In this document: one piece after another, positions 3,447 to 30,520 of the stretch
How positions within the stretch are numbered: position 1 is the stretch's first letter
How the letters are laid out: each line of letters begins with the position of its first letter
Assembly (NCBI GenBank): GCA_029550925.1
Contig: JAKPGL010000007.1
Location: 1-64,000 of the forward strand
Length of the DNA stretch: 64,000 bases
Reading direction: 5' to 3'
DNA from: Planctomycetota bacterium
Lineage (GTDB): Bacteria > Planctomycetota > Planctomycetia > Pirellulales > Thermoguttaceae
The notes under the pieces: model-generated
Databases searched by the model: none
Told to the model about the DNA's origin: nothing
Seen by the model: the letters and a program-made list of their open reading frames with translations, nothing else
Position numbers and translations under genes: made by a program

Positions 3447-4355
3447 TTACCGCCGCCAGCGCCGTCGGCTCCGGGCGTTTAGATAATCGACCAGCACCCC
3501 GGCCATGTCCTGGCTCGTATCCACCAGGACCCGTTCGATCCGATTCCGCAGGCAGATTTCTTCCAGTTGCCCGTTGTGTCGTTCCACAGCGGCCAGGTAC
3601 GCCCGCCGGATCGCTTCCGGCTGGGCCAGCAGCTCCTCCGGCGCCTCCAGCCCCACAAACTTGGTCATCCCCTCCAGTTCAAAGGCCAGCTCATCATGGT
3701 GCATCACCTGAAACAACACCACCTCGTGCTGATGGTATCGGAACCGTTGCAGGGCCTTTTCCAGCGGCCCTAGCTCCGTGAAAAAATCGCTGAAAATCAT
3801 CACGATCTCCCGACGCTTCATCCGCCCGGTCAGTTCCCCCAGGCAACCGGCCATATCGGTCTTGGCCACCGGCTGGGTCTGGTCCAATACCTGAGTGATC
3901 CGCAGCAACTGGGCCATCGAATTGGTCGGCGAAATAAAATCCCGCACCCGGTCATCGAACACGGCCAGCGATACCTTATCGCTTTGCCGAAGCACCGCAT
4001 ACGCCAGGGCTGCCAGCATCTGGCAGGCATATCGCAATTTTTGCGTTCGTCCTTGGCCATACCGCATCGAAGCGCTGCTGTCCAGCACCAGATGGCAGAC
4101 CAGGTTGGTCTCCATCTCGTACTGCTTGATGAAGTAGCGATCCCGGCGGAAGTAGATCCGCCAGTCGATATGTTTCGGGTCGTCGCCCCAGACGTACTCC
4201 CGATGACCTGCAAACTCCACGGCAAACCCGGAAAGCGGCGACTTATGCGCCCCGGCCAAATTGCCCAGCACCAAGCCGCGCGGCTGCAATCGCCGCTTGG
4301 CCATCCGGCTCAGCACTTCCGGATCCAAATATCGGGACAAAATGCTCTGCGTCAT
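3447..4355 (-). CDS. DUF58 domain protein (VWA-like partner of MoxR ATPases)
   Basis: 302 residues. The DUF58 signature is clear: REYVWGDDPKHIDWR at 52-66, followed by a VWA-like fold with a MIDAS-type DSSAS at 92-96 and a second acidic strand IFSDF. DUF58 proteins normally sit directly beside a MoxR AAA+ ATPase and are thought to receive its chaperone or metal-insertion activity in envelope assembly. Here the only MoxR gene in view is about 13 kb away (17146-18177), on the same strand. No strong Shine-Dalgarno precedes the ATG at 4355, so the start is a little uncertain. Family assignment is firm; the exact role is unknown. Confidence 0.9.
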   Translation of the reverse strand: MTQSILSRYLDPEVLSRMAKRRLQPRGLVLGNLAGAHKSPLSGFAVEFAGHREYVWGDDPKHIDWRIYFRRDRYFIKQYEMETNLVCHLVLDSSASMRYGQGRTQKLRYACQMLAALAYAVLRQSDKVSLAVFDDRVRDFISPTNSMAQLLRITQVLDQTQPVAKTDMAGCLGELTGRMKRREIVMIFSDFFTELGPLEKALQRFRYHQHEVVLFQVMHHDELAFELEGMTKFVGLEAPEELLAQPEAIRRAYLAAVERHNGQLEEICLRNRIERVLVDTSQDMAGVLVDYLNARSRRRWRR

Positions 4356-9890: not shown

Positions 9891-9911
9891 TAGATTGACT
9901 GGTTCCTTACC

Positions 9912-12509: not shown

Positions 12510-12542
12510 ACTGTTCGGGGACCTCTTCCCCGCACACAGAAA

Positions 12543-12928: not shown

Positions 12929-12935
12929 TTCGTGT

Positions 12936-13433
12936 TTAGAAATCGTCCTTGTCGGTAAGCTCTTTCTCCATCTCGTCGGCGGTGCTGGTAACAGCTTGCA
13001 GAGCCAAGAGTAAGGTCTTTACGTCGGTGTTGGCGGCGATTTGGGCAGAGAAGACGGCCACATAGTTCTCGCCCATCTTACGAATCTGCCAGGCGCCGAG
13101 TTTGACTTGGCCGTTTTGTTCTAGGAGTCGAGCGGCAATCTTCGGCGGGATCGGCTCTTTCGACCGATAGCCGATCGACCAAATCTGCCGGATTTCCAAC
13201 GAGCCTAGTTGAGAGGTGTTGGACAAAATCCAGGCAAGCTGAGTCCTCTCTCCTTCCAACCGGTTTCCGAGCATGAAATCTCCGTCCTCGTCCACTTTGT
13301 ATTTCAGTTCCGCTTCCTGGAGGAGCTTTTCGACCCGTTGATCAGGGGTTTTCTTTACGCCCACTTGGGCATAGGCGGGACATACAAGTACGCCCCCTCC
13401 GATGACCAACAATCCTACGATAAGCTTTTTCAT
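12936..13433 (-). CDS. Small secreted YbjN-like protein
   Basis: 165 residues from the ATG at 13433, which has AAAGGAG about 7 bases upstream; an upstream extension of the frame has no such site. Residues 1-22 form a clear signal peptide (MKKLIVGLL, ending AYAQ). The mature part resembles YbjN-type sensory-transduction domains (a KYKVDEDGDF strand, then an alpha/beta pattern), but the match is by pattern only. It is probably periplasmic and monocistronic. The function is unknown; YbjN-like domains are thought to help protein stability or interactions. Confidence 0.75.
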   Translation of the reverse strand: MKKLIVGLLVIGGGVLVCPAYAQVGVKKTPDQRVEKLLQEAELKYKVDEDGDFMLGNRLEGERTQLAWILSNTSQLGSLEIRQIWSIGYRSKEPIPPKIAARLLEQNGQVKLGAWQIRKMGENYVAVFSAQIAANTDVKTLLLALQAVTSTADEMEKELTDKDDF

Positions 13434-13876
13434 CTGTAGGTCTCCTTTCTTGTTTCGGTAGGAGGCTCTGGTCCTTTGGGGCGCCAATCCGCCAGCCCGA
13501 CCAACAGAAGGCCGGAAAAGAAACCGAACGGGTGGTGATCCAAACATCCTCTTTCACTCGCCTCCTTTTCCTGAAAGACTCCCTGTAAGATACGCATTCT
13601 GCTATTTCTGTCAATAGGATTGCTCTTTTTTACTCTCTGGTCCTCCCCGCGACTCAACCGCCGCCGCCAAGCCGACTTGTATGGAACGCCGTCTGTCAGA
13701 CGGTAACGACGTCTGTTAGACGGTAATACAGCACCGTCTGTCAGACGGTACAACCAACCCAGTCTAACAGACTGTGTTAAAGCCGCCTGCGCAGCAATAA
13801 AAGATTCCTCCCTGCAGCGGAATGCTTCCCTTTTTTGGCGGGGACAAAACGGGCGAGGAGCAAACCAACCAGGTCC
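13434..13876. other. Palindrome-rich intergenic region
   Basis: This 443-bp gap contains four short palindromes of the CCGTCTG-N-CAGACGG type clustered at 13689-13773. The rest, including a TTTTTACTC-containing stretch near 13627, shows no gene. Confidence 0.45.
13689..13773. repeat. Cluster of four CCGTCTGTCAGACGG-type palindromes
   Basis: The units are CCGTCTGTCAGACGG (13689-13703), ACGTCTGTTAGACGGT (13709-13724), ACCGTCTGTCAGACGGT (13733-13749) and AGTCTAACAGACT (13761-13773). Related single or paired units occur at 23849-23865 and 48731-48773. They could form stem-loops in RNA from either strand, but lack T-runs. Confidence 0.7.
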
Positions 13877-15967: not shown

Positions 15968-16517
15968 TTCTTTTTCCTGTTTTATTTACTTTTCTTATCT
16001 TTCCCAAATTTCCATGACCTCTTCTTCCGAATCCCCTCAAAAGAGGAGTCCTTCGATTTAGGGGGGGAATGAGCGCACCCCCTCTTTAGAAGCAGATTCT
16101 TTGCAACGCTACGGTGCAAAGGAAACTAAAACACCGAGCTTAGCAGGCAAGCCTTCCGTTCCTATTACCTTTTACTTCCTAGGAGTTTGGCCTAGGGCTT
16201 TCTATAACGTAGAATTGAAATGGCATTTTGAGAAGATCAATTGCCCCGGACACCCACAGGGCTTTTCTTTACCCCGGTATCTTTTCCAGAGGGGTTGTGT
16301 GGGGGTTGGGCCTATTTCCAATTTTCCCGTGGAGCCCCCTCTTTCGGGTGGAAAAGGCTCCATTGCGCCTCGGCCAGTAGAGAGAGAACAAGGGAGAAAC
16401 AGAGAACAGGCGAAACGAGGTCGCATTTCTCCGCTTTTGTCTCTTTCAGCTACGAAAGGCCCTTCGGCCTGAAATCATGGGCGACATCTAATTTCGTTCC
16501 TTTTCGGGGAGGTGTTC
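15968..16517. other. Divergent intergenic region, no gene recognised
   Basis: 550 bp between the minus-strand WaaP-type kinase and the plus-strand PilZ-like gene. Short reading frames on both strands lack conserved features. Promoters for both genes should lie here. Confidence 0.4.
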
Positions 16518-16958
16518 ATGAATACCTTGGCTTTCCGAGCACCAGTGGAATATGCGTTGGAAAACCATCCTTCCGATCCGGAGATCATGGCTCGAGTCGC
16601 TTCTTTGGTAAGCAAACTCTTTCCCGCCGGTCGATTGCCGGAACGTCGGTCCCATCAACGGTATCCGTTTCCCTATCTGGTTCGGCTGATCCGAGTGGCC
16701 GATGATGGAATCACCCCCACCGAGGAATCGATCGTGGTTGTCGGCCGACATATTTCAGAGGCCGGGTTGGGTTTCTATCATGTGAAACCCTTGACTGATC
16801 GGCGAATGATCGCCTCTTTCGAGACTGCTGCTGGCCAATGGACTGCTTTTTTGTTGGACATCCATTGGTGTCGGTTTACCAAGGAAGGCTGGTATGAGAG
16901 CGGGGGCCGATTCCTCCGCACGGTACCCTGTCCAACACCACCTCCTCGAGAAGTCTAA
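16518..16958 (+). CDS. PilZ-like domain protein
   Basis: 146 residues from the ATG at 16518, which has GGGGAGG 5 bases upstream. Residues near 42-46 read RSHQR, matching the RxxxR half of the c-di-GMP-binding PilZ motif. Later HISEAGLGF resembles the (D/N)xSxxG half, with histidine in the first position. PilZ proteins bind c-di-GMP and control motility, exopolysaccharide or surface life. The gene is divergent from the double WaaP kinase, which fits an envelope theme but proves no link. The assignment rests on two short motifs. Confidence 0.6.
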   Translation: MNTLAFRAPVEYALENHPSDPEIMARVASLVSKLFPAGRLPERRSHQRYPFPYLVRLIRVADDGITPTEESIVVVGRHISEAGLGFYHVKPLTDRRMIASFETAAGQWTAFLLDIHWCRFTKEGWYESGGRFLRTVPCPTPPPREV

Positions 16959-17145
16959 CGAAATCGCTGGAGGCCCCGAGATAGATTCTCCCCTTCCTCG
17001 CAAATCGCCTTCCGTGGAAGCAGCCCAGGACTTCGGCGTCTAGGGGTAATGCAGCAACATTTCGTCCGCTTGAAACGAAGGCTTATTCTGCATCCGCCTG
17101 GGCGTCCTCCTCCTTGCGTCTGAAATGCCGCCGTTCATCGAGGGG

Positions 17146-18177
17146 TTACGCTGCTGGGCGTTCGTATTTTCGGTCGGCCGGCACGGCTTCCAGGAGCATG
17201 TCGATCAGCCGATCGCTGGTCAGTTCGTTAGCCTGGGCCGCATAGTTGCCGGCGATCCGGTGCCGAAGGGCCGGTTTGACCAGGGCCTGCACATCACCGA
17301 TCGTAGCGTGGTATCGGCCGTGGAGCATGGCCCGGGCCTTGGCGCAGGTAACCAGGGTCAATACACCCCGCGGCCCCGCGCCCCAATTGACCCAGCGGTT
17401 GACAAACTCCGGCGCTTCTGGCGCGCCTGGCCGACTGGCCCGCACCAGCGCCCAGGCATATCCCAGCACCTGGTCGCTCACCGGAATTCGGAGCAAAAGT
17501 TTTTGGAACTGAACGATCTCTTCGCCGGTAAGGACAGGCTGGATGCCGCCCAACTGGCCGGTGGTAACCTTACGGGCAATTTCCCATTCTTCGCCGCCGC
17601 TGGGGTAATCCATTCGGATGTACAGCAAAAATCGGTCCAGTTGGGCTTCCGGCAGCGGATAGGTGCCTTCTTGTTCCAGGGGGTTTTGGGTGGCCAGCAC
17701 AAAGAACGGATCGGGCAATTTGTAGATTTTTCCGCCCGACGAAACCTGCCGTTCTTGCATCGCTTCGAGCATGGCCGCCTGGGTTTTCGGCGGCGTACGG
17801 TTGATTTCGTCGGCCAGGATCATGTTGGCAAAAATCGGCCCCGGCAAAAACTTATACCGGCGTTCCCGCGTGGCGGGGTCTTCCTGAATGATCTCTGTGC
17901 CGGTGATGTCGCTGGGCATCAGGTCCGGCGTGAATTGGATGCGTTTGAAACTCAGGTGCATGGCCTCGGCCAACGAACTTACCAAAAGCGTCTTGGCCAG
18001 TCCCGGTACTCCTTCCAGCAGAGCATGCCCCCGGCTGAAAATGGCCGCTAGCACCTGTTCGATCACCTCCGATTGGCCAATAATGACCTTGGCCAGCTCC
18101 TGGCGAAGCCGATCGTAGGTCTGTTTGCACTGGGCCACTGCTTTCAAATCATCGTCTGTCGGCGTTTGGGTGCTCAT
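17146..18177 (-). CDS. MoxR-family AAA+ ATPase
   Basis: 343 residues from the ATG at 18177 (GGAG 8 bases upstream; a TTG three bases earlier is not needed). Walker A GVPGLAKT lies at 56-63 and Walker B LADEINR at 121-127, followed by the MoxR hallmarks ATQNPLEQEGTYPLPEAQLDRF. MoxR ATPases work with VWA/DUF58 proteins in maturation of envelope or secreted complexes. It is the last gene of a minus-strand cluster, 59 bp after the coiled-coil gene. Its usual DUF58 partner is absent here and lies about 13 kb downstream (3447-4355). Confidence 0.95.
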   Translation of the reverse strand: MSTQTPTDDDLKAVAQCKQTYDRLRQELAKVIIGQSEVIEQVLAAIFSRGHALLEGVPGLAKTLLVSSLAEAMHLSFKRIQFTPDLMPSDITGTEIIQEDPATRERRYKFLPGPIFANMILADEINRTPPKTQAAMLEAMQERQVSSGGKIYKLPDPFFVLATQNPLEQEGTYPLPEAQLDRFLLYIRMDYPSGGEEWEIARKVTTGQLGGIQPVLTGEEIVQFQKLLLRIPVSDQVLGYAWALVRASRPGAPEAPEFVNRWVNWGAGPRGVLTLVTCAKARAMLHGRYHATIGDVQALVKPALRHRIAGNYAAQANELTSDRLIDMLLEAVPADRKYERPAA

Positions 18178-18236
18178 CAACGCAGTCTCCGTAGTTCCAA
18201 GGAATGGATGTCTCTTTCGAGAGGGAAAAAAGTTGT

Positions 18237-21200
18237 TTACTCCTCCAGGTTTTGGAAGTATCGGCGCAGCCGGTCTTCATAGCCGCGGGGAGGCTGACCC
18301 TGAGCCTGCGCCCGGATAGCGGCGCGAAGTTCCGGCGGCAATCGGGCAAACCAAGGCGCCTCTTCCAATGCCTTTTCCGGGCTGGTGGTAATGTCGCCGG
18401 TGCGTCGGCCCGGCCCACTGGGAGTGCGTTGGCCCGGTTCGCTCTGCTGGGTCAACGGTGCTTCCGGCGGTTTGGGATTCTGGGCCTCCGACCCAGGCCG
18501 AGACAAGCCGCCCCCGCTAAGACCTTGCTGAGCCGGTTTGGCCGACGGCGGAGCGGTCGGACTACTTGACTGGGCGGCTGGGCTGAGCATTTGGGCGGCC
18601 GATTGCGCCATTTGGGCCAGGCTCTGTTCGGCGTTTTGCAGTTCGGCGGCTGCTTGTTGGAGGGCCTGGCTGACGGCCTGTTCTGCTCCGGGGATTTGTG
18701 CTGGCATTTGGCTGGCTTCTTGCGCCCCTTGTTGGGCCTCGGAAGCTGCCTGCTGAAGCGCCGCCGTAGCTTCTGGATCGACAGGTACGGCTTGCTGGGC
18801 CAATTGGTCGGCCTGAAGGGCTTGCTGGGCCAATTGGCGGGCAGCCTCGGCGGCCAATTTTTTTTGGGTCTCGGCCAATTGCTGGGCCGCCTCCTGAAGC
18901 TGTTGGGCGGTTTGCTGTTGCGACTGGGAAGCCGCCTGCTGACGGCCTTCGGCTGCCTGCTGGGCCGCCTGTTCGGAAGAGCGTTCCGCCTCCTGAAGCG
19001 TCTGGGCAGCTTGGGGAGCGTCCGGTTGGGCCAATTGGCGGGCCTCCTCGGCCGCCTGGCTTACCCGCTTCTGAGCCTCCGTATTGATCTCTCCGGTTGG
19101 CTGCTTGGATGCCTCTTGGACCTGCTGTTCCAATTGCCGAAGGGCCTCTTGGAGGGCCTGCCGGGTTTGGGCCTGGGCCTTTTGAGCTTCGGCGGCTTTT
19201 TGTTCGGCCAGGCGGCGAAGGGCTTCTTGGGCGGCCCGATGGGCCTGGGCCAATGCCTCGGCCGCCGGTCCCGGAACCTCCTTACCAGCCGGAGGTTCTT
19301 TGCCGGTCGGAGATTCTTTGCCAGCCGGAGTTTCCTTTCCCGCCGGAGTTTCCTCGCCGGATGGGGCTTGCTTCGACTCTTCGCCGCCCTTTTCCGATTC
19401 GGATGGACTGGGTTTTGCCTCTTCGCCCGCACTCGGTTTTTCTGTTTGGCCGGGACTTGGTTTCTCTGTTTCTCCAGGGGTCGGTTTTCCTTCCGCCGGA
19501 GCGGATTTTTCCGATTCACCAGCGGTCGGTTTTTCTTCCCCGGAAGTCGGTTTTTCCGCCAGGCCGGGAGTGGATGACTTGGCTTCAGTCGGTGTGGATT
19601 TTTCCGATTCGTTTTCCTGCTGGTCCTTGGCTGGGGCGGTTTCTGAGCGGGCGGCGGCCTGTTTGGCCAGTTGGGCGGTCTTTTCGGCTACCTGCTGTTG
19701 TTTTTCGACTGCCTGGGAGTGAGAGGCCCGGCCTTGTTGGGCGGCTTGGGCTGTCTTTTCGGCCGACTCCTGCCGACGGAGGGCGTCTCGGATCCGCTCG
19801 GCCAATTGGGCGGCTTCGGCAGCCTCGGGCCGACCAGCAGCCCGAAGTTGTTCGGCCTGGGCTTGGCGGACCTTTTGCTCGGCTTGGGCCAAACGGGCAA
19901 GCCGATCGGCGGTGCTGGGTCGATTGGTCAGGGCATCTTCTACCGCCTGGCGGACCTGGGCGGCCTGCTGGCGGGCCTGTTCGGCCGACCGGGCCAGTTG
20001 GGCCGCCGTCTCTGCGGCTTGCTTTTGAATCTCTTTAGCTGCCTGGTCTAACTTCTCGGCTGCCTTCTGGGCGGATTGGGCTGCCTCGGTAAGCGGCTGT
20101 TTGGACGCCTCTCCGGGTTGTTGGCTCGCCTTTGCCAATTGCTGAGCCGACTGCTCCATGTCTGGACGGGCTTGTTCAACTGCCTTGGCTGCCTCCGGTG
20201 CTACGTTAGCCGCCTGCTGGGCCGCTTGGCGAGCTTGGGCTTCGATCTGGTCCTGCTCATGGGCCATCTGTTTGGCCTGGTCAGCGGAAGCGCCTTCCGT
20301 CTGAGCCGCCTTCTGGGCTTCCTGAGCGAGTTGCCGCTCCTGCTCGGCCAATTGCTGAAGGTTTTGGGCGGCCTGGGCTAAGGCTTGGGCTTTGGCAGTC
20401 TGAGCCTGATGGTCGGCTTGCTGGAGGGCATGTTCCACTTCGGCCTGCGCCTGCTGGATGGCCTGATGGGCCTTTTCGGCGGCGGCCTGCCGTTGGGCGG
20501 CTGGAGTGGACCGATCCATAGTTTGGGCGGCTTCCTGGGCTTTTTGTTCGGCCCGCTCAATAGCCGACTCCACCCGAGGCGGCAACGGCTCCAACTTGCC
20601 CAACTTGTCCAACCGTTGAGCGATTTCCGCTTCGGCCGATTTTGCCTTTGCTGGTTCCGCGGCGGCCTGGTCGGATACCTCTTGCTGGGCTTTTTGCAAG
20701 GCATTCAATTCCTTTTTGGCCTCTTGCAAAGCCCGTTCTAATTCTGCCAGGTCTTCGGGGCTGGCGGCCTGCTGGGGGTGCTCAGCCGATTCGGGCAAGT
20801 TCCGGGCCGCCTCTTGCAAGTTTTTCAGCACCTGTTCTTGCTGGGCGAGGGCTTCCTCCCGCTTGGCCTCGAACAGTTCCCCCGCTGCATCCTCGGCTGC
20901 TTGCTCGGCTTGCTGGAGCGGTTTTGCCGCCGGGGACTCCTCCGGCAGTTGCCGACGAAGTTCATGGAGCTCCCGTCGCAGGGCGTTTTGCTCCTGGGCC
21001 AATTGTTCTGCTTTGGCCGAGGCCAAATCGCTCTGGGCAGTCTGCTGCCGAAGTTCCTGTTGGCGGTCGAGAAGCTCCTGGACCTTTTCCCGAAGGTTCG
21101 ACTGCTCCTCTGCCACCAGGCCCCGAACCCGTTCGATCCGCTCCAGGAGTTTCCGAAGGATGTCGATCGTGGTTTCGGCGTGGTTTTGGGCTTCGGCAAA

Positions 21201-21926
21201 TTTCAGGGCCTCCAGTTTGGTCAGCACGGCGGCCAGATGATCATCGGCCCGGTGCTCCTGGAGCAGTTTTACTGCCCGGTCGGCCTCGGCGCCGGCCGAC
21301 CCGCCCCAGGAGGCGAACTTAACAAGCAAATCCTTCATCTGAAGATACAGGGTCTGGGTGTCCCGCTGGTTTTCCTGGGCCGCCAGGGCCAGGTCCTCTT
21401 GACCAGTGGGTTGCTCGGCCAAGGTGCGACAGGATTTCCACACCCCGGTCTCCAGTTCGATCAGCCGACGCACCTGCTCGGCCAATTCCGAAATCCGAAG
21501 CCGCTGCAACAGCAGATGATGCTGAATGACCAATTCTAGAAGCACATTGCGACTTTTCGAGCGGACAGCCACAAACGCCTCTTTTTTCTGCCCCTGAGAA
21601 AGCTGGGCGATCTGATCCAGGAGGGCGATGAGGTCAGCCATTTCTTTTTCGGTCAGTTGATCGACCTTACCGCGCAGAAAGCGGATTTCCTGATACCAGG
21701 GATGTTTTTCCAGTTGGTTATCTTCGAGCTGGGCCAGTTGGTCGTCCAGGAGACGGACCACGGTTTGCCGGGCGCGGGCGCGCAATTGTTCCTGGATTTG
21801 CCGTTTGCGGGCTAGCCCGGCAGGGTCCAATGCCTGGGCAAAGACGGTTGGAACCACCAGCCCCACCGCACAGACGCAGAAAACCAGCACCCCATACCCG
21901 CAGAGACTCCTTCCTGATCGGTTCAT
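18237..21926 (-). CDS. Giant Ala/Gln/Glu-rich coiled-coil exported protein of the MoxR cluster
   Basis: 1229 residues. An N-terminal signal peptide (hydrophobic GVLVFCVCAVGLVV, then AQA) targets it to the envelope. Residues about 50-760 and 890-1140 are almost continuous coiled coil, built of Ala, Gln, Glu and Lys heptads. Residues about 760-885 are a Lys/Pro/Glu/Gly-rich linker with short repeats such as TPAGKE. The C-terminus (from about 1150) turns Pro/Gly-rich and ends in a short charged helix. The ATG overlaps the upstream stop (ATGA at 21923-21926), so it is co-translated with the DUF4175-like gene. It is probably a long structural or scaffold protein in the periplasm. Long plus-strand reading frames here are composition shadows. 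Confidence 0.85.
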   Translation of the reverse strand: MNRSGRSLCGYGVLVFCVCAVGLVVPTVFAQALDPAGLARKRQIQEQLRARARQTVVRLLDDQLAQLEDNQLEKHPWYQEIRFLRGKVDQLTEKEMADLIALLDQIAQLSQGQKKEAFVAVRSKSRNVLLELVIQHHLLLQRLRISELAEQVRRLIELETGVWKSCRTLAEQPTGQEDLALAAQENQRDTQTLYLQMKDLLVKFASWGGSAGAEADRAVKLLQEHRADDHLAAVLTKLEALKFAEAQNHAETTIDILRKLLERIERVRGLVAEEQSNLREKVQELLDRQQELRQQTAQSDLASAKAEQLAQEQNALRRELHELRRQLPEESPAAKPLQQAEQAAEDAAGELFEAKREEALAQQEQVLKNLQEAARNLPESAEHPQQAASPEDLAELERALQEAKKELNALQKAQQEVSDQAAAEPAKAKSAEAEIAQRLDKLGKLEPLPPRVESAIERAEQKAQEAAQTMDRSTPAAQRQAAAEKAHQAIQQAQAEVEHALQQADHQAQTAKAQALAQAAQNLQQLAEQERQLAQEAQKAAQTEGASADQAKQMAHEQDQIEAQARQAAQQAANVAPEAAKAVEQARPDMEQSAQQLAKASQQPGEASKQPLTEAAQSAQKAAEKLDQAAKEIQKQAAETAAQLARSAEQARQQAAQVRQAVEDALTNRPSTADRLARLAQAEQKVRQAQAEQLRAAGRPEAAEAAQLAERIRDALRRQESAEKTAQAAQQGRASHSQAVEKQQQVAEKTAQLAKQAAARSETAPAKDQQENESEKSTPTEAKSSTPGLAEKPTSGEEKPTAGESEKSAPAEGKPTPGETEKPSPGQTEKPSAGEEAKPSPSESEKGGEESKQAPSGEETPAGKETPAGKESPTGKEPPAGKEVPGPAAEALAQAHRAAQEALRRLAEQKAAEAQKAQAQTRQALQEALRQLEQQVQEASKQPTGEINTEAQKRVSQAAEEARQLAQPDAPQAAQTLQEAERSSEQAAQQAAEGRQQAASQSQQQTAQQLQEAAQQLAETQKKLAAEAARQLAQQALQADQLAQQAVPVDPEATAALQQAASEAQQGAQEASQMPAQIPGAEQAVSQALQQAAAELQNAEQSLAQMAQSAAQMLSPAAQSSSPTAPPSAKPAQQGLSGGGLSRPGSEAQNPKPPEAPLTQQSEPGQRTPSGPGRRTGDITTSPEKALEEAPWFARLPPELRAAIRAQAQGQPPRGYEDRLRRYFQNLEE

Positions 21927-23743
21927 GGCTTTTCTCCTCCGACTTCGAGTTGGCGGTCGATCATTTCCTGATATTCTTGGACGAGTTGGCGGTCGGCTTC
22001 GGTGATGGCGGCCAAGATGCCGGCCAAATCGGTAACCTGGAATACAAGCGGTTCGCTCAAGCCCACCTGCCCGGGCCGAGGTCCCCGGTAGTCTTCTGCC
22101 CGGACCGTCAGACGCAATTGGTCGCCCGGTTTCAGCCCCAGCGAATCCAGCGGCACTTGCACTGTAGCCTGTCGGTTCTTCGTCGGCTTTTCCTCGGGGG
22201 CCAATTGATAGACTACCAGTTCGTCTTCCGCTGTAGAACCGTCGGATCGGACGACCTGCCGGAGGAGGCTCACCTTAGCGACGCCGAAATCATCGGACGC
22301 CTCGTAGAGAATCCGCGGCCGGGCGGTGGGTAGTATCCGCGGCGTGCGTTGGTTGGCCGAGATCCGGGGCGCCAAATCGGGTAAAATCCGCAAAAAGGCT
22401 TGCACCGGATGCTCCAAACTCAAACCATGTTCATCTTTGACTTGGATGGTAAATTGCAGGGGGGCGGTAACGGCTTCCAGCGGGGCGCCTGCCGGCGGTA
22501 AGGTCCACCATTGGGTTGGGCCGCCCTCTGCTCGCCCTGGGTCGGGTTGCTCCTGGGAAGAAGAGACGCCTTGGACGCCTTCGCTTGAATCCACCAGACG
22601 CATAGGATACGTTTTCTCTTCGATCCGGACGCTGGCTTCCTGGAGGCGTTTATCCGAAGAGATATAGACCCGTACCTGAGACCCCTCCACCACGGCCAAT
22701 TGACACAGGCCGGGAAATCGCCCCTTAGGTATATCGCCGTCCAGGGCGTAATCCGGCGGCTGGACTTCCATCACAAGTTCGATCCGGGGCAGAGGCGTCA
22801 GACGCAGCAGGATCGGTTCGGTCCAGGCGTCGCCCAGATAGATTTTCATCCAGGCTGGGTCTGAAAGCCGATCCAATCCGCCTCCGTACAAAGCAGAATC
22901 CGAGGGATTCTCTTCTTGTTGCTGTTTTGTCGGAGGGCCGGAGGGGATGGGAGGAGTCCCAGGGGCCGGTTGCCCACTGGATTCCGCCGGGGAGATCGGT
23001 TGTAAAGGTATCTTTGTTCGCGCCCCGGTGGAACTGAGGGCCAGTTCCAATCGGCCTTCTTCGGGCAGTTGGCCGCTGGCAAGGACTTCCACACGGATCG
23101 GCTGGCCTTCGATCACCCAACACTCGGCCATTTCAGCCGGCACGATCTGCCCGTTGACTTTGACCCACTGAATCTGGGTCCGGGTCGGATAATGGCGGTT
23201 GCTCAGAAAGAACCGGGCAAGAAAGGTCTCCACATACACCGGCCAAATGGTCCAAACTGCCAAAGCGACGGCCGCCGTGCAGGCCAGTACAACGGTTCGC
23301 CGCTGGATCGGCTTTTTGGGCAGACCTTCGTCCATAGGCAACTGGGGGACCAATTGGACGGCCTGCTCAATGACCGCTTGTTCCAATTGCACCGACCCCC
23401 AATCAGGCGCCTCGGGCGATTCAAATTGCAAGGCGGCCACCACATCGCTATCGACCCGTGCTTTGCGTTCCACCCACAAGGCAATGTCCAACTCGGATTC
23501 TTTGCCGTGGACCCAGGGCCAACCATAGCGTCGATAGGCCCAGACCAAACCGACCGCCCCAACCAACCAGACGACCAAACGCTGGGCCCGGTTCAGGTCC
23601 AAAAGCCAATCCAACAAGAAAGCAACGACCAGAAACCACAAGACGGCCGTTGCCAGGGGCGTAAGCCCAGCCAACCACCGGAGCCGACGCCGCCTGCGCA
23701 TTAACCGCCGCAACTGCCAATGTAATGGGGCCAACGAGGTCAT
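21923..23743 (-). CDS. Two-TM membrane protein with large periplasmic part (DUF4175-like)
   Basis: 606 residues. Basic N-terminus (RRLMRRRRRLRW) followed by two transmembrane helices at about 25-45 and 52-68, then a third hydrophobic segment near 150-170. The rest is predicted extracytoplasmic, with beta-rich stretches and Pro-rich linkers, and the C-terminus is helical. This resembles DUF4175-type proteins found in VWA/MoxR clusters, but the match is by layout. The start lacks a strong Shine-Dalgarno. The stop overlaps the start of the coiled-coil gene (ATGA), so the two are probably made together and may interact in the envelope. Confidence 0.75.
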   Translation of the reverse strand: MTSLAPLHWQLRRLMRRRRRLRWLAGLTPLATAVLWFLVVAFLLDWLLDLNRAQRLVVWLVGAVGLVWAYRRYGWPWVHGKESELDIALWVERKARVDSDVVAALQFESPEAPDWGSVQLEQAVIEQAVQLVPQLPMDEGLPKKPIQRRTVVLACTAAVALAVWTIWPVYVETFLARFFLSNRHYPTRTQIQWVKVNGQIVPAEMAECWVIEGQPIRVEVLASGQLPEEGRLELALSSTGARTKIPLQPISPAESSGQPAPGTPPIPSGPPTKQQQEENPSDSALYGGGLDRLSDPAWMKIYLGDAWTEPILLRLTPLPRIELVMEVQPPDYALDGDIPKGRFPGLCQLAVVEGSQVRVYISSDKRLQEASVRIEEKTYPMRLVDSSEGVQGVSSSQEQPDPGRAEGGPTQWWTLPPAGAPLEAVTAPLQFTIQVKDEHGLSLEHPVQAFLRILPDLAPRISANQRTPRILPTARPRILYEASDDFGVAKVSLLRQVVRSDGSTAEDELVVYQLAPEEKPTKNRQATVQVPLDSLGLKPGDQLRLTVRAEDYRGPRPGQVGLSEPLVFQVTDLAGILAAITEADRQLVQEYQEMIDRQLEVGGEKP

Positions 23744-23871: not shown

Positions 23872-26364
23872 TCACGGCAGATTGATCCATTTTCGTCCGA
23901 GCCATTCACCCAAAAGCAGCAGTACCACCAGGCCGAACATGGCCCAGGTGTCCCACAGCGAGACGACCACCACGGAAGTTTCTCGGCGGTCGTCAGGTTG
24001 CAAGTTTTCCAAAAGTCGGGCGGCGTCGGTCAAGTCGGCGGTTTGGCCGCCGGTTGCCTGCGCCAAGGCCTCCTGTAACGCCAGGTTTCGTACCGCCTGT
24101 TGGCGTTCCACAGAGATTGATTCTACCTGAAACGTCGTTTCTGCATAAGTTTCTGTCAGGGGGTCTTTCACCCGGAGCCGGTAGCGCCCCGGGGCGTAAA
24201 CCGGCAATCGGGCCTCAAAAACGCCTTCCCGTAACTGGGCAATCCGCACCGGCAGGATGCGAGCGGTCCTCTGTCCTGGTTCTTCTGGTGCAAGGCATTG
24301 CGCTTCCAAGGCGCCGCCGGGAACCTTGTCGGCCGAAAGCGGCTTGAACTCTGCATCATAGGCTTCGACCGTTACCAGCACCTGTTCTTCCGGCCTGTAC
24401 TGGGTCCGATCGGTCCGGACAACAAACCGTTTCTCCTGCCCGAGGGCATGGCGCAGGGCCAACCGATGGATCATCTGCCCCCAAAACTGCCGGTAGTAGA
24501 GTTCGCCGTATTGACGACGCAGGCGCCAGGTTTCGTTAAACCCGATGTAGATCACCTCGCCGCGCTGGTATTTACCGACGGCGATGATCGGCTGCGGAGA
24601 GCCGTCGATGCAGGTATCGGTGGGATGAACGGCCAAGGCAGTGGCCAAAGGCTGCAATCGTTCGACCGGCTGGTACCAGTACAGCGGCCCCAGGTTGTTC
24701 CAGGCTTTGCGGTGTTCGGCGGCGCTAGAGCCGAGTTGCATGAAGTCGTATTGTTCCGCCTCGGCCGTCAGTTGCAGCCGGAAAGGATGAGCTTGGCGGA
24801 TGCGGGCCTGGGGGTTGACTTTTACGGGCAGGAGTTCTTCCAGCGGGGTACCGGCCAACTGTCCCGGCCCAAACCGTGGTCCCGCCGCCACCACCAGACC
24901 GCCGCCAAATTGACCGACAAACTCTTTGGTCATCTGGCAAAACCCGGCGCTTAAGGCCGAGGCAGGCATATCGCCCAATATAATCACATCGTGGGTGAAA
25001 AACTCAGTGCGGGGCAGGGTCATGGTCGGCTCGAACAGCGGGTTGCTCTGCCGAACCTTCGGGTCGGCCGACCGTAAAAAGGTGCGAAATCCTTTCATGC
25101 CGACCAGTTTGTCCCGATGGAAGACTTCTTTAATGAATCGCCATTCCCAGGTCGGTTCATATTCGACAAAAAGCACTCGAAGGAAATCGTCCCGAACGTT
25201 AGTTTCTCGGACGGCCTGGTTATTTTGGTGGACGATTTCGCCCGGTTGGACTTCCACGGACGCCCGCAGCAAGTATCGGCCAGTTTCTGTGGGCGTAAAT
25301 GGAAGCTCCGCCATTTGCACCGGGCCTTCTAGCAGCAGTTGTTTGACGCCGATGGGTGTTGCGGGTTTGGGTTCGCCGGCGCCGCCGAGCAGTTGGGCGG
25401 TAAATTGGACGGCAACGGTTTTTCCGGCAAGGCCCTCTTGGCGCACGGTAGCCAGGAGGTTGGTGCGTTCGTCTTTTTTCAGCAGCGGCGGCGCCTGGAG
25501 GTCTAAGGCCAAATCGACGGCGGCTGTTGGACCGACGCCAATGGTGTGTATTTTTGCGCCTAGTCGTTGGGCCGCCTCCAGAGCAGAGGGACCAGCATTC
25601 TGGTTAAAATCGCTGAAAATGACCACCCCCGCCAATTGGCTGGTTGCCTGTCGGCGCGCCAAATCGTCCAAGGCGGCGCCGATGGCGGTCAGTTGTCCCT
25701 GGGTGGTCAGTTGGTCGGCCAGATGGGCCGGGTCGAGCGACTCCACTCCCCGCAGCGGCAATTCCGGCGCAAGTTCCAAGGGGCGAACCCCTTCCAGCCG
25801 ATCGAACAAAAAGGCCTTCAGGCGAAAACGTTTGGCCAACTGGGCCAGGAGTTGGCCCTGGTCTTTTCGTAAGAAGGCTTTGACCCAGGCGATCCGAGTC
25901 GGGGCAACTTGGGCTTGACCAGCCGGCTGAGGTTGGGCGTCCGAGGGAGGCTCTTTTTGGGGACCGGTTTCGGGCTGGCCCACAGCAGCCGCTAACCGAT
26001 CCCATTCCGGCTGGGTCAAAATGTCCGGGATGGCCATGCTGTCGGTGCCGTCGAAAAGAAGCCACAAGTTGGGCCGGACCCGGCTAGTAAGTTGGAAGGT
26101 GGCGACCGGCTCGGCCAAGATAAGCACCAAGAGTAGGACGACGATGGTGCGCATGGCCGCCAGCAGCAGCCGGGGAAGCAGGCGTCGGCCAGGCTGGGCC
26201 TTAGTATAAAAAAGAACAACGACCAGCGCCGCCCCTACCGCGGCAAACACCACCCAGGCCAACCCTTCGGCGGCCCAGGGCGCGGCTAGTGAAAGACGTA
26301 CCCGTTCGATCCGCTCCGGGTCTTCCAGTCCGATCAGTCGGCCTAATAGACTGCTGAGGTTCAT
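23872..26364 (-). CDS. VWA-like membrane protein with glutamine-amidotransferase-like region
   Basis: 830 residues from the ATG at 26364, which overlaps the upstream stop (ATGA). The longer open frame to 26454 lies inside the upstream gene and is not needed. Two transmembrane helices occur at about 34-52 and 65-84. A VWA-like domain then carries a weakened MIDAS, DGTDS at 105-109. Later parts (about 440-650) resemble the glutamine-amidotransferase-like domain of BatA-type relatives. A C-terminal helix (MFGLVVLLLLGEWLG) anchors the end. It is paired with the BatA-type gene just upstream, and both are probably clients or partners of the MoxR ATPase. Confidence 0.82.
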   Translation of the reverse strand: MNLSSLLGRLIGLEDPERIERVRLSLAAPWAAEGLAWVVFAAVGAALVVVLFYTKAQPGRRLLPRLLLAAMRTIVVLLLVLILAEPVATFQLTSRVRPNLWLLFDGTDSMAIPDILTQPEWDRLAAAVGQPETGPQKEPPSDAQPQPAGQAQVAPTRIAWVKAFLRKDQGQLLAQLAKRFRLKAFLFDRLEGVRPLELAPELPLRGVESLDPAHLADQLTTQGQLTAIGAALDDLARRQATSQLAGVVIFSDFNQNAGPSALEAAQRLGAKIHTIGVGPTAAVDLALDLQAPPLLKKDERTNLLATVRQEGLAGKTVAVQFTAQLLGGAGEPKPATPIGVKQLLLEGPVQMAELPFTPTETGRYLLRASVEVQPGEIVHQNNQAVRETNVRDDFLRVLFVEYEPTWEWRFIKEVFHRDKLVGMKGFRTFLRSADPKVRQSNPLFEPTMTLPRTEFFTHDVIILGDMPASALSAGFCQMTKEFVGQFGGGLVVAAGPRFGPGQLAGTPLEELLPVKVNPQARIRQAHPFRLQLTAEAEQYDFMQLGSSAAEHRKAWNNLGPLYWYQPVERLQPLATALAVHPTDTCIDGSPQPIIAVGKYQRGEVIYIGFNETWRLRRQYGELYYRQFWGQMIHRLALRHALGQEKRFVVRTDRTQYRPEEQVLVTVEAYDAEFKPLSADKVPGGALEAQCLAPEEPGQRTARILPVRIAQLREGVFEARLPVYAPGRYRLRVKDPLTETYAETTFQVESISVERQQAVRNLALQEALAQATGGQTADLTDAARLLENLQPDDRRETSVVVVSLWDTWAMFGLVVLLLLGEWLGRKWINLP

Positions 26365-29003
26365 CCTATCTTCGCTCCCCGCACTACGGGCCAGGCCAAC
26401 AAAACGCCTTCGATCAGTAAGCCTGCCAGCACCGCTGCGATCAGCCAGCGCCAATAGTCTTCCCGCAAAACCGCCGCTCCGGTAACCGAAAGGGTTTCCT
26501 CAGCCTGTCGGAGGGCCAGCGGCACAGCGCCCGCCCGCTCCAGAATCTCTCCGTCCGAAATAGGCGTGAGGTCCGATTCCTCGGAAGGTCCGTTGATTGC
26601 AAGCGGCGTCTCCCAGAGTTTCGACTCCGGCGCTGTACCAGCGGCTCGGTTGACGCCGGGAGTCGATCCGCCGGGGACGGATCCGCCTGAGACCGCTGTC
26701 GGAAGGTTCTCCTGGCTGTACGCAGCCAAGCGCCAAACGCCCCGTCGGTCAAGCGGAGGGATTCGGATTCCGTATCGGTCGGCGGCTAGGGCCTCGACGG
26801 CCAAGGTCTCGGTCTGTCCGTCCGGATCGGTCAGCAGAATCCGAGCCGATCGCTCCGCCGCCGAGACTGGAACCACCAAGCTCTGCGAGGCGCTTACGTT
26901 CCGGCGGGGAATGCTGTGCTCCAACCCGCGGCGCAATATCCGATCGAACACTACGACCGCATACTCCGCCGTCATATTGTTCCAATCTCGAAATACGCCG
27001 GAAGAGACAAAAAGCACCCGGCCTCGGCCGATTGGCCGCTCGACCAAAAACGGGAGCCGATCTTTCGTATATCGGGCCAGGGTGGTAAAGGCCATCTGTT
27101 GGATAAGCGGTTCGGGCAAGGCCGAGGGAGCGGTCCCCGACGGAGACTCAGAAGAAGCGGGGCCGGATGCGGTACTGCCAGCGATGGCCGGCGATTCGGC
27201 CCGATCGCCCAGCAGCGGATCGGCCGGCGGCCCAAAGGCGGCCTCGGCCCACAGGAGCCAATGAGGTTGGATCGCCGCCCGACGCTGATCCAGGGCCAAA
27301 CGCCGCTGGCGGTCCTGGTCGGTAAGAACGGACTTGGCCCGCAGCTCGGACAACTCCTGCTCGATTTGCCGAAGCTCCGCCTGCTGGTGTTGCCAGTGCT
27401 GGGACAGGTTCTCGAGCAATTGCCGACGGACCTGGGGGCTGTCATCTACGGCCACGGCTTTGAAAAAGAACACCCGGCCGTAGAGTTCTTTAAGGGTTTC
27501 CTCCGGTTCGTGTTCCATGAAGAAATAGTGGCCCATCAGGCTAGAGAAATCCAGGAAGAAGGGTTCCAGCCGACCTAGAGTTTCCTGAGGGGTTCGTCCG
27601 ACCGGTTGGGGTTTAAGCGGAGCGGGCAGGATACCTAAACCGTCCTGCCAAGCCGACTGGTTCCAAGCCTGGGGGTCAAATTGGCCGCCGGCGGCAATCA
27701 GCAGAGTGCCGCCCTGCTGGACATACTCCCGCAAAAGCGGCGTCGTCGCACCGGGACTTGGCAGGCCCGCCATCACCACCACACGAGCGTCCTGCAAAAG
27801 CCGACGGCCTTCCGATTCCAATTGGGAAAGGTTTCCATGACGGACTTCGACCAGTTCCGGCTGAGTAGATCGGCCCATCGCGCCAGGCGCTAGCAGCCGA
27901 CGAAGCCGATATGTCTCGCCGTATCGGCCCAGGCGCGGCTCTTCGGCTTTTCCCAGGGAATCGACAAAGACCACAGGCAAGCCGGCGGCCACCGGAACAG
28001 CCAACGCCCGGCGGTCGTCCATCGGGAGCCGATCCGCTGAAATCTGCACCTCCACCGGCGCAAAAACCACTTGACCTGGTTCGACGCGTTTGGAGAACCG
28101 ATACGGTGGAAATCGGACTTCGGCGGTTTGGCCTGGCAGGAGAGTTAGGCGCTCCACAGCCGCCGACGCCCCTTCCACCAAAAGAGTTACTTGCACATCG
28201 CGCCGAGGCGTCTGGCCTCCATAGCGAATCCTGGCCAAAAATACAGCAGGGACATTGACATCGGCCAGCCCGTCCAACACCTCCACCGTTTCCACCCAGG
28301 CGTTTTCCCGTTGCTGCGGCCCAAGCCGAAGCACCTGCAACGCCCCAGGCAACCGTTTCAAATCCTCCTCCAAAGAACCGACCCGCCAAGGCAAAGCCTG
28401 ATGATCGGTAACTAGGAGAATTTGCTTTAGGGTCGGCTGAGCTACTCGTGCGCAGGCCTGTCGGGCCAAGTCGATCGCCTGGGGCGCCGTAGCTTGGCGA
28501 TCCACTACTTCTACCGTCTGGAGGGCTTCCAGGGCGTCCTGTTTGGTGCGATAGGCCGGCGCTGGCCCGGACAACCGCCGACCGCCGCAAAGCGGCACAA
28601 TCGAAATCACGCTTCCGGGCGGTAGCTGCTCAATGGCTTCGACGAGCTTTTCCTTGGCCTCGTCCAGAAGGCTTCGGCCCAACTGTTCGTAGCCCATGCT
28701 GAGGCTGTTGTCGAGCAGAAAGACGGCATGGACCGGCTGATTGGGATCGGCGGCGGCGGGGGCGGCCAGTCGATACGGCTGCGCCAAGGCCAAAGCAAAC
28801 GCTAAAATGCACCCGCACCGCACCAGCAAAAGCACCAAGTCCCGCAGGCGAAGCCAACGTCGGCTTCGGTGGATCGCCTGGCGAAGAAAGTCCATCGCCG
28901 CCCACTCGACGACTCGGTACCGCTGCCGGTTTAGCAGGTGAATGATGACCGGGCCGGCCGCCGCCGCTAACCCAGCGATGACAAACCAAGGCGCATAAAA
29001 CAT
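26361..29003 (-). CDS. BatA-type VWA membrane protein
   Basis: 880 residues. The N-terminus matches the BatA/aerotolerance-type leader (FYAPWFVIAGLAAAAGPVIIHLLNR) with transmembrane helices at about 7-24 and 55-77. A VWA domain follows with a full MIDAS DNSLS at 98-102. The long middle part is periplasmic-like, and one helix near the C-terminus (WLIAAVLAGLLIEGVLLAW) anchors the end. Planctomycetes carry such proteins beside MoxR and prenyltransferase-repeat genes. The start has no strong Shine-Dalgarno. The stop overlaps the next start. The likely role is envelope integrity or complex assembly with MoxR; the exact function is not known. Confidence 0.88.
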   Translation of the reverse strand: MFYAPWFVIAGLAAAAGPVIIHLLNRQRYRVVEWAAMDFLRQAIHRSRRWLRLRDLVLLLVRCGCILAFALALAQPYRLAAPAAADPNQPVHAVFLLDNSLSMGYEQLGRSLLDEAKEKLVEAIEQLPPGSVISIVPLCGGRRLSGPAPAYRTKQDALEALQTVEVVDRQATAPQAIDLARQACARVAQPTLKQILLVTDHQALPWRVGSLEEDLKRLPGALQVLRLGPQQRENAWVETVEVLDGLADVNVPAVFLARIRYGGQTPRRDVQVTLLVEGASAAVERLTLLPGQTAEVRFPPYRFSKRVEPGQVVFAPVEVQISADRLPMDDRRALAVPVAAGLPVVFVDSLGKAEEPRLGRYGETYRLRRLLAPGAMGRSTQPELVEVRHGNLSQLESEGRRLLQDARVVVMAGLPSPGATTPLLREYVQQGGTLLIAAGGQFDPQAWNQSAWQDGLGILPAPLKPQPVGRTPQETLGRLEPFFLDFSSLMGHYFFMEHEPEETLKELYGRVFFFKAVAVDDSPQVRRQLLENLSQHWQHQQAELRQIEQELSELRAKSVLTDQDRQRRLALDQRRAAIQPHWLLWAEAAFGPPADPLLGDRAESPAIAGSTASGPASSESPSGTAPSALPEPLIQQMAFTTLARYTKDRLPFLVERPIGRGRVLFVSSGVFRDWNNMTAEYAVVVFDRILRRGLEHSIPRRNVSASQSLVVPVSAAERSARILLTDPDGQTETLAVEALAADRYGIRIPPLDRRGVWRLAAYSQENLPTAVSGGSVPGGSTPGVNRAAGTAPESKLWETPLAINGPSEESDLTPISDGEILERAGAVPLALRQAEETLSVTGAAVLREDYWRWLIAAVLAGLLIEGVLLAWPVVRGAKIG

Positions 29004-29071: not shown

Positions 29072-30376
29072 CTAGCGTCCCCGGCTCTTTAAGGGGCGTT
29101 TGTTTTTCGGTGTTGGGTTGGCGGCGTCGGGGTTGAAATCGCCGCCGAATTGGGCCTGGAGGCTGCCGATTCGGCCCTCCTGGAGGATGGGCAAGTATCG
29201 GTTGGGGATGGCCAGTACAAAACAGCAGACGCTCGTCAAGTACAGGTCGCCTGGTTTGCCGCCCACACGGGTTTCGCCCACCCATTTGCCATGATCGTCG
29301 GGCCGATCCGGTGCGACGATCTGACTGGCGACCACGGCGTCTCGGAGAACCGGATAATGTTCCTGCCAGGCCGGGCCGCCCACTTGGTACAGAGCTTGGG
29401 CCACGTAGTACATCGTATAGGCGTCCATCGGCGCCCGTCGTTCCCGACGTACACGTTCCATCTTACACTCTTCCCGGATGGCCCGCAGCACAACCTCCAT
29501 GCTTTTCGGAATCCGCCAATCGTCGTATTGGCCGAACTCCTGGAGGCAGACTACGCCGGCGGCAGCCATGGCAACGGTAGCGTTACCGCCGCCTTTGCTA
29601 TAGGTGAATTGGCCGGGATACTTTTTCAGTTCTTCTTCCGGCGCTTCTCGGCGCACGCCGCGAGGGGTATAGTGTTCGCGTACGCTGCGGATGGCTTTTT
29701 CGACCACTTCGGGCGGAACCTCCAGACCGCTATCCACCGCGCTGCGCAGGGCCAGCGCCTGCATGACCGCCAGACTCAAATCGTGGCCGTTCGGCTGGCG
29801 TCGGGCCACATAGTCCCAGCCGCCGTCCAAGCACTGGGTATAGGCGATCAGCTTCAAACTGCGATCCAGTACCGTACCCACCCGACTATCGCCGGTCATC
29901 CCATAAACCTGCCCCAGCATGAAGGCCGACAGGCCGTGGTTGTACATGTCCCGCCGTTGGTCGGCGATATTCAGAAGGCCGGAAGGTTGGCCGTTTCGCA
30001 CCACATAGTCCAAGGCCCGTTGCACGGTTTCGCCGTAGGGCCCCCGACCGGGCAGATGCCCAGCCGCCAAAAAAGCCAAGACCCCGGTGCTCACCAGGCC
30101 CAGGTCGTCAGAACTCCAATTGCCTTCGGGGCCTTGATGGCGGGCAAGCCATTGGAGACCACGTTCCAGCGCCTCGGCGCTTTGGGGCGTAATTTCCCAA
30201 TCGCCTTGGGCTAGGCCCACCGTGGGCAACCCCGCCCAAAGCAACGCAAAAAGCCAGAACCCCCTCAACACCCGACCACACCAGAGAGAACGCCGGGGGG
30301 CCGATGGTTTTGGGCCGATTTTGGGAAAAGCCCTTGAAAGAAATACGCTTTCTGAGCCGCCCCAGGAATGGGTCAT
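29072..30376 (-). CDS. Exported prenyltransferase/squalene-oxidase-repeat protein
   Basis: 434 residues from the ATG at 30376, with AGGAGG 8 bases upstream; the frame extends to 30484 without a better site. A signal peptide (LRGFWLFALLWAGLPTVGLAQG) spans about residues 33-56. The mature part is an alpha/alpha toroid with repeats such as LQWLARHQGPEGNW and YTQCLDGGWDY. These resemble squalene-hopene cyclase or prenyltransferase repeats. I see no DxDD motif, so it is probably not a true terpene cyclase. It is the first gene of the MoxR/VWA cluster, 68 bp before the BatA-type gene. Confidence 0.85.
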   Translation of the reverse strand: MTHSWGGSESVFLSRAFPKIGPKPSAPRRSLWCGRVLRGFWLFALLWAGLPTVGLAQGDWEITPQSAEALERGLQWLARHQGPEGNWSSDDLGLVSTGVLAFLAAGHLPGRGPYGETVQRALDYVVRNGQPSGLLNIADQRRDMYNHGLSAFMLGQVYGMTGDSRVGTVLDRSLKLIAYTQCLDGGWDYVARRQPNGHDLSLAVMQALALRSAVDSGLEVPPEVVEKAIRSVREHYTPRGVRREAPEEELKKYPGQFTYSKGGGNATVAMAAAGVVCLQEFGQYDDWRIPKSMEVVLRAIREECKMERVRRERRAPMDAYTMYYVAQALYQVGGPAWQEHYPVLRDAVVASQIVAPDRPDDHGKWVGETRVGGKPGDLYLTSVCCFVLAIPNRYLPILQEGRIGSLQAQFGGDFNPDAANPTPKNKRPLKSRGR

Positions 30377-30520
30377 CGTCGCGGCCTCCTCTTGCTGTTC
30401 CTGAAAAGGGCCGGAGTTCGGCGGCTGCAAATACGGCGGCCCGCCCAAAAGACAATCCGGCCAGAAAGAACGCCTTTCGGGCAAACAATTGCTTCCAATG
30501 TCCAGTCTCAGGCCGAGTGA

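Follow-up and report, generated by a model that had tools for sequence, protein, structure and literature searches.

Two overlapping genes in a planctomycete MoxR-VWA cluster probably encode the halves of a DUF4175-like membrane protein

A 64,000-nt stretch of a Planctomycetota bacterium of the family Thermoguttaceae (GCA_029550925.1, contig JAKPGL010000007.1, positions 1 to 64,000; hereafter the window) carries on its minus strand a MoxR-VWA gene cluster that includes a 1229-residue, Ala/Gln/Glu-rich protein, P0001 (hereafter the coil), encoded directly downstream of the membrane protein P0003. Judged by their alignment to related proteins, P0003 and the coil are best interpreted as halves of a single DUF4175-like protein. 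We put at about 0.7 the probability that the two chains together make up a single periplasmic arm of a MoxR-VWA envelope complex, in which the C-terminal half of a DUF4175-like protein is provided by the second of two overlapping genes. The two chains are colinear with single-chain relatives and split between two genes, linked and co-occurring across genomes; the coil is constrained at both ends; and sister clusters of this genome divide the related parts in other ways. The features of the two genes are as follows.

21923..23743, minus: P0003, probable N-terminal half of the split protein, with hydrophobic helices, Ig-like beta domains and a C-terminal helix at 573-602 (AlphaFold2, fold matches and profile alignment)
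18237..21926, minus: coil protein P0001, 1229 aa, probable separately exported C-terminal half of the split DUF4175-like protein, found in 35 of 147 genomes of the order
21923..21926, minus: ATGA, start of P0001 over the stop of P0003, with an in-frame start at the same offset in 46 of 55 loci
21834..21926, minus: signal-peptide-like N-terminus of P0001, residues 1-31, ...VVPTVFA-QA (inspection and hydropathy)
21027..21830, minus: conserved Leu-rich helical head, P0001 residues 33-300, ratio of nonsynonymous to synonymous substitution rates (dN/dS) 0.07, AlphaFold2 helices
20766..21023, minus: P0001 residues 302-387, helical, matching PF13779 (DUF4175; profile 664-750 of 825) with 25.8 or 28.0 bits
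19257..19676, minus: degenerate TPAGKE or Pro-Gly-Lys-Glu linker, P0001 residues 751-890, dN/dS 0.26, low occupancy in relatives
18240..18365, minus: tail box PWFARLPPELRAAIRAQAQGQPPRGYEDRLRRYFQNLEE at the C-terminus of P0001, dN/dS 0.05, homologous to the tails of the sister clusters

Profile comparison revealed that the two proteins together resemble single-chain proteins of other MoxR/VWA-type loci. Seventeen related open reading frames (ORFs) of 781-1268 aa were gathered via weak matches to P0003, and 12 of them made up the single-chain template profile, with L039, L040, L042, L043 and L046 left out. A joint profile of P0003 and the coil from 14 loci matches the 12 single chains over 997 columns, with an E-value of 2e-51. 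P0003 alone aligns over 514 columns (template 14-549, E=1.5e-40), followed by the coil alone over 460 columns (template 566-1084, probability 96.8, E=2.2e-10), whereas a reversed coil or a reversed template gives a probability of only 0.3-0.4 (E 0.15-0.23). This colinear alignment indicates that the coil is the counterpart of the single chains' C-terminal half, encoded as a gene of its own. Similarly, against four one-chain carriers of the tail box (L039, L040, L042 and L045), P0003 aligns over 501 columns (E=9e-32) and the joint profile over 768 columns (E=1.7e-32). Among 15 scanned sister-cluster proteins, which include all 12 template members, nine match PF13779 at E<=0.01, with a best score of 37.6 bits against a gathering score of 27.3; the match of an individual member is displayed only for L054. 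The coil itself matches the C-terminal part of PF13779 with 25.8 bits by hmmscan and 28.0 bits in a six-frame search. None of 55 loci holding both parts is fused, so we treat the pair as a split relative rather than as an ordinary PF13779 member. The coil is thus probably the second half of the one-piece membrane protein of related clusters, not a free-standing giant.

The coil ORF fills 18237-21926 exactly, in agreement with the earlier note on this DNA, but lies on the minus strand; the plus strand in the same frame is interrupted by stops. Its ATG lies within the ATGA and overlaps the P0003 stop (21923-21926) by 4 nt, as that note had also seen, and translational coupling is probable. The start codons at the overlap position in 46 of the 55 loci comprise 42 ATG and 4 GTG; in the remaining nine loci the picked coil start lies 9-183 nt further downstream. 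The signal-peptide-like start of P0001 was judged by inspection and hydropathy alone, with a hydropathy peak of 3.23 over 13 residues starting at residue 13, and would fit the proposed export. A hydrophobic segment is found within the first 50 residues of the coil in 50 of the 55 loci, and the true start may lie further in for the five coils that lack one (L085, L091, L116, L143 and L153).

The coil had been described as almost wholly Ala/Gln/Glu heptads with a TPAGKE-repeat linker, a description that is overstated. Ala, Gln and Glu (20%, 15% and 12%, respectively) make up 47% of the protein, and the helical periodicity peaks near a heptad, at 3.50-3.56, in residues 150-300, 450-600 and 600-750. 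However, residues 33-300 are Leu-rich, and the periodicity is mixed rather than uniform, at 3.62 in residues 300-450 and 3.64-3.72 in residues 900-1110, with no significant periodicity in the linker (residues 750-900). Exact TPAGKE occurs in two copies (residues 860 and 866), followed by the variants SPTGKE and PPAGKE, inside a degenerate Pro/Gly/Thr/Lys/Glu linker, the region 781-900 of which has a mean occupancy of 31-39% across 14 aligned sequences.

Compared to L059, a locus of the same genus, the whole coil gene is under purifying selection (dN/dS 0.14), and full-length homologues are present in other genomes. The C-terminal 42 residues are the most constrained part (0.05), followed by the head, residues 33-300 (0.07), the Ala/Gln-rich parts (0.15) and the linker (0.26). 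The AlphaFold2 model of residues 28-480 (49 alignment rows; predicted local distance difference test score, pLDDT, 83.7; predicted template-modelling score, pTM, 0.55) is all helical, with helices of 13-61 residues and turns between them; it is a monomer model, a kind that can miss oligomeric coiled coils. Part of the modelled coil resembles four-helix bundles. Structural similarity search of the head by Foldseek found no known fold at E<=0.001, and VIA-align returned generic helical bundles, the highest Z-score being 16.1 for 121 residues matched to a designed protein; the tool notes such matches to be common for helical models. In a sequence search against solved structures, the best match of P0003 had an E-value of 0.0095 and that of the coil head 0.023, and neither was used.

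These data bear on the proposal of the earlier note that the coil is an independent giant whose length measures the periplasmic span. An independent envelope-spanning rod, long enough to bridge the inner membrane to the cell wall or the outer membrane, would fit the signal-peptide-like start, the mostly helical structure of residues 28-480, the conserved ends with a faster-evolving middle, the near-heptad periodicity in parts and a length of at least 968 aa in 38 members of a set of 40 complete coils, which includes the window but not L162. However, homology ties the first half of the coil to half of a single-chain protein, the same 40 coils range from 649 to 1604 aa, the Pro/Gly linker interrupts the helical parts, and the modelled helices end at turns after 13-61 residues and partly pack like four-helix bundles. 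The rod as originally stated was rejected on the single-chain homology, the modelled helices and the length variation, and an independent envelope-spanning rod is unlikely.

P0003, taken here as the N-terminal half of the arm, gave an AlphaFold2 model (55 rows) with a pLDDT of 89.9 and a pTM of 0.69. It has helices at residues 5-48, 52-78 and 143-166, separated by shorter ones, then beta domains spanning roughly residues 189-570, and a last helix (573-602) that sits where a single chain would continue into the coil. Residues ~188-572 match Ig, Fn3 and macroglobulin-type domains, in generic terms only. In the hydropathy profile of the window protein the peaks at residues 30 and 151 are strong and the middle helix is weak; three hydrophobic peaks are found in several relatives, both single-chain and split. 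Were three helices to span the membrane, starting from a positively charged N-terminus in the cytoplasm, the Ig-like domains would be periplasmic, on the side where a signal peptide would place the coil. One in-frame stop was seen in the P0003 match region of each of five genomes (G306, G055, G298, G303 and G046), either an overrun of the true stop or a broken gene.

The pairing of the two genes was surveyed in 81 stretches, comprising the window and the best 80 of 122 relatives from a named-genome scan with a P0004 profile; 75 of these 80 belong to Planctomycetota and five have no phylum (one is labelled Nealsonbacteria). A P0003 homologue is found in 63 of the 81 stretches, and 55 of the 63 also have the coil head, always as its own ORF; 18 stretches have neither. 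Among the eight P0003 stretches without a coil, L092, L095, L100, L152 and L159 are at or near a contig end, and L112, L122 and L136 have room but no adjacent coil. The 4-nt overlap joins P0003 and coil in 46/55 loci, compared to 2/36 for coil and MoxR and 5/58 for P0006 and P0005; it is also frequent between P0004 and P0003 (36/63) and between P0005 and P0004 (44/66).

Genome-wide presence agrees with this pairing. A survey covered 147 genomes from the order, requested at 90% completeness or more; at E<=1e-60 the coil head was detected in 35 and P0003 in 36: both in 35, P0003 only in one, the coil only in none and neither in 111. Relatives therefore do not lack the coil, as the earlier note had allowed they might, since 35 of the 36 genomes with P0003 have it. 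In 34 of the 35 pairs the genes share contig and strand and are adjacent, their matched parts separated by 63-369 nt; in the remaining genome (G280) the matches are close to two contig starts. A cultured planctomycete, Blastopirellula marina DSM 3645 (locus L158), is among the carriers of the pair. The P0003-only genome is G046, in which a shorter coil-like ORF adjoins P0003 at L074. There, positions 4875-7990 hold a diverged P0003 and a 588-aa coil-like ORF with a tail-like end, PPGYVSRLRRYFSSLP, possibly an intermediate form. Of 197 genomes drawn evenly across the phylum (completeness of 80% or more requested), eight have strong coil matches (E<1e-100) and 16 more have weak ones only.

Incomplete clusters offer a further view of which partner the coil follows. 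Fourteen loci in which the cluster around P0004 is incomplete were followed, namely 11 of the 18 that lack P0003 and the three that have P0003 but no coil, and 13 of the 14 genomes have one coil elsewhere. In these 13 genomes the coil adjoins P0003 in nine, MoxR without P0003 in three, and neither in one; at L189, one of the three beside MoxR, the coil ORF runs into the contig end, so that a neighbouring P0003 could not be seen there. These counts touch the idea that the coil is a client, such as a surface protein, that is matured or inserted by MoxR and VWA proteins and stands outside the machine. MoxR ATPases are treated as chaperone-like, with VWA cofactors, in one source (PMC3893208), and the three coils next to MoxR alone would suit such a role. 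However, the coil is kept with P0003 rather than with MoxR in most of these genomes, and it is homologous to part of the membrane-anchored component of sister clusters, which makes a client role improbable.

The genome of the window contains three further DUF58/BatA-VWA clusters, C14, C79 and C172, and MoxR is present in three of the four clusters. C14 encodes MoxR, DUF58, BatA-like and P0004-like proteins, a 1259-aa anchor-Ig-coil chain, a 251-aa protein and then, by eye, a P0006-like protein; the 1259-aa chain matches the template over 1165 columns (E=2e-147), and the 251-aa protein has a signal-like start and overlaps its gene by 4 nt. C79 encodes MoxR, DUF58, BatA-like and P0004-like proteins, followed by an 859-aa chain, a 623-aa coil and a 446-aa protein, the latter two with signal-like starts. 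The 859-aa chain corresponds to template columns 18-742 (E=1.8e-28) and the 623-aa coil to columns 753-1189 (E=3.1e-21; reversed 0.003). C172 (L205, G000:C172; 6915-10367, minus, and 10925-17229, plus) has DUF58, BatA-like and P0004-like proteins and one 1150-aa chain on the opposite strand, with no MoxR in the 20 kb examined; residues 6-566 of this chain match the template (E=7.8e-23) and its end matches the sister tails (E=3e-6). All four clusters thus share the module order, the kinds of neighbours (DUF58, BatA/VWA and P0004-like) and a tail box ending the last chain, but differ in division: two chains in the window, one chain plus a small tail-box protein in C14, three chains in C79 and one chain in C172. 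The break falls near template column 565 in the window and near ~750 in C79, so the two cuts differ. A tree of the N-terminal region, unrooted for want of an outgroup and with long branches, separates the window type (17 rows) from the C79 type (3 rows), each on its own branch with 100/100 support. Four fully fused rows lie inside the two-gene group in a fork with two two-gene rows (100/97), and the placement of C172 is unsure.

In all four clusters the last chain ends in a conserved box of the form LP...R.......Y...I..Y(F/Y)R.L or, in the window type, LPPELR.AIR.....P.GYE.RLRRYFQ. Profile-profile comparison of the window-type tails with a larger sister set gave a probability of 94.3 and an E-value of 1e-7, a score reached by none of 200 column shuffles; the window-type tail profile hidden Markov model alone was not significant against 17 sister proteins (best E 0.026). 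A regular expression built from these box sequences found 65 hits within 70 residues of a C-terminus, and none at a more internal position, in 9,890 ORFs from a set of overlapping and related loci. A search of the genome with an 11-row tail profile returned four matches below E=1e-7, in the window, C79, C14 and C172, with the next at E=0.2; the first three are rows of the profile and C172 is independent of it (E=7e-8). A significant box is found in 18 of 21 sister loci, in the same chain in five, in the next ORF in ten and two ORFs on in three, with five of the 18 being rows of the tail profile, and none is significant in L038, L043 and L047. For L045, L046, L053 and L055 the listed segment is a secondary one, and a C-terminal box is seen for L045, L046 and L055. 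This box of about 40 residues probably acts as a working end.

Several results weigh against the two-half reading. The aligned part of the coil covers roughly its first half only, the Ala/Gln-rich second half being additional, and against the four one-chain tail carriers the coil alone aligns at the tail only (41 columns, probability 9.8, E 0.0033). The alignment of the C172 chain is confined to its anchor-Ig part and tail and leaves out the helical middle. By hmmscan the coil narrowly misses the curated DUF4175 cut-off, no Pfam model matches P0003, six proteins of the genome's own sister clusters show no DUF4175 match at E<=0.1, and TIGR02302 is matched neither by P0001-P0006 at E<=1 nor by the 15 sister-cluster proteins at E<=0.01. 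If only two helices of P0003 cross the membrane, the Ig-like domains would lie in the cytoplasm, out of reach of the coil. As for linkage, one genome (G062, locus L112) has P0003 but no coil match, P0003 and coil are separated in two genomes (L122/L190 and L136/L181), and no P0003 lies beside the coil at L180. Finally, deletion of all bat genes of Leptospira biflexa left growth and morphology unchanged, according to the abstract of that report (PMC3557215). That the similarity merely reflects shared coiled-coil composition, the coil being an unrelated spacer or stress-protective protein, draws on the low-complexity A/Q/E-rich middle, the sub-cutoff and tail-only matches above and a C79 coil that matches the window-type coil (E 0.0015) no better than a reversed control does (0.0011), but it is very unlikely given the failure of the reversed profiles against the 12 single chains and of the shuffled tail columns, the Leu-rich rather than A/Q/E-rich head, the colinearity over both chains and the homology of the tail box.

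The minus-strand order of the cluster is P0006, P0005, P0004, P0003, the coil P0001 and P0002, the neighbours of the two arm genes being the following.

29072..30484, minus: P0006, squalene-cyclase-like (toroid) repeat protein, weak, sub-cutoff match (E 0.014)
26361..29003, minus: P0005, BatA N-terminus (PF07584, 52.8 bits) and VWA_2 (33.7 bits)
23872..26454, minus: P0004, membrane protein, VWA-like by motif only, with sub-cutoff DUF7408 and MG2 matches
17146..18180, minus: P0002, MoxR AAA+ ATPase (AAA_3, PF07726, 209 bits; AAA_lid_2, 52 bits)
3447..4355, minus: DUF58 protein, 92.5% identical to the MoxR-adjacent DUF58 protein of the same-genus locus L059

PF07726 in P0002 and the BatA and VWA_2 domains in P0005 support the view that the coil belongs to a MoxR-BatA/VWA cluster. 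Of the two VWA proteins and the toroid-repeat protein that had been proposed, P0005 is firm, P0004 has a DGTDSM motif by eye only and no Pfam VWA match at E<=0.1, and P0006 stays below the cut-off. Besides BatA, P0001-P0006 have no Bat-named Pfam match at E<=0.1, in a scan that included no search aimed at the Bat proteins BatB-BatE. DUF58 comes next after MoxR in 29 of 32 related loci with room, and is adjacent to it in L059; in the window the two are ~12.8 kb apart. The intervening stretch, 4356-17145, looks inserted or rearranged, and at 13877-15967 (minus) encodes a 696-aa single chain with two Kdo/WaaP-type kinase stretches. Upstream of the cluster, at 30521-32454 (minus), lie genes for an HNH endonuclease and an M50 peptidase, an order kept in L059.

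Proteins of the DUF4175 family have N-terminal transmembrane helices and a long low-complexity helical C-terminus, and TIGR02302 proteins have a similar layout. A TIGR02302 gene of Azorhizobium has reportedly been deleted, to go by a cited title (PMC6842974), and the Rhizobium leguminosarum operon discussed below presumably includes a DUF4175/TIGR02302 protein. Nine of the 15 sister-cluster proteins match the PF13779 model, and the window coil does so with scores just on either side of the cut-off. Compared to that family, however, the window has two genes, its coil has a signal-like start of its own, an extra Ala/Gln-rich spacer and a tail box, and its P0003 is outside Pfam; TIGR02302 differs in that its model goes unmatched by the six window proteins as well as by the 15 sister-cluster proteins. 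The MoxR, BatA-VWA and (12.8 kb off) DUF58 genes resemble the Bat operon and other MoxR-DUF58-BatA/VWA arrangements, to which the window cluster adds the squalene-cyclase-like protein and the split arm. In Rhizobium leguminosarum, mutants of RL3499-RL3502 (cmdA-D) have envelope and morphology defects, as described in two papers (PMC5700661, PMC3893208); RL3499 and RL3500 appear among growth-impaired genes in a third (PMC5118466), and the operon is cited in a fourth (PMC4287336). A TIGR02302 gene and a MoxR gene are both found in a regulon table of a study of Rhodobacter CenKR (PMC9275681). No title concerning a split of this kind turned up among papers on DUF4175, TIGR02302, MoxR clusters and RL3499, and no link to the coil was drawn from an Acinetobacter AdvA paper that features DUF4175 (PMC7481262). 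Altogether, the MoxR-VWA/DUF4175 kind of cluster is already known, and what is new is an arm cut into different genes and a distinctive tail box.

We propose a scheme in which coupled translation would bring the two chains together. P0003 would give the membrane anchor, about three Ig-like domains and a short last helix, whereas the coil, exported by its own signal peptide, would give the helical region, a spacer rich in Ala and Gln whose length varies, and the tail box. Both chains would assemble in the periplasm into one arm held by P0003, the tail box would dock this arm to a partner, and MoxR would act from the cytoplasm on the VWA partners. Together with the BatA/VWA proteins, DUF58 and MoxR, the arm may form an envelope-maintenance machine; the periplasmic location, the physical assembly and the envelope-maintenance role are inferred, the last of these from what is known of related operons. 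More tentatively, the arm may be built of freely re-cut modules, in which anchor, Ig, helix and tail come as one chain, as two (in two ways) or as three, chains without an anchor carry a signal-peptide-like start, the shared tail box serves as the docking point and the Ala/Gln-rich part as an adjustable tether.

MoxR-VWA clusters occur widely, and most of their partners in the membrane and periplasm still lack an explanation. The differently cut arm in four clusters of one genome offers a natural "Rosetta stone", in which the cuts suggest which proteins assemble and where the limits of the modules lie. A "coiled-coil giant" would thereby become a set of specific pairs and truncations in a planctomycete.

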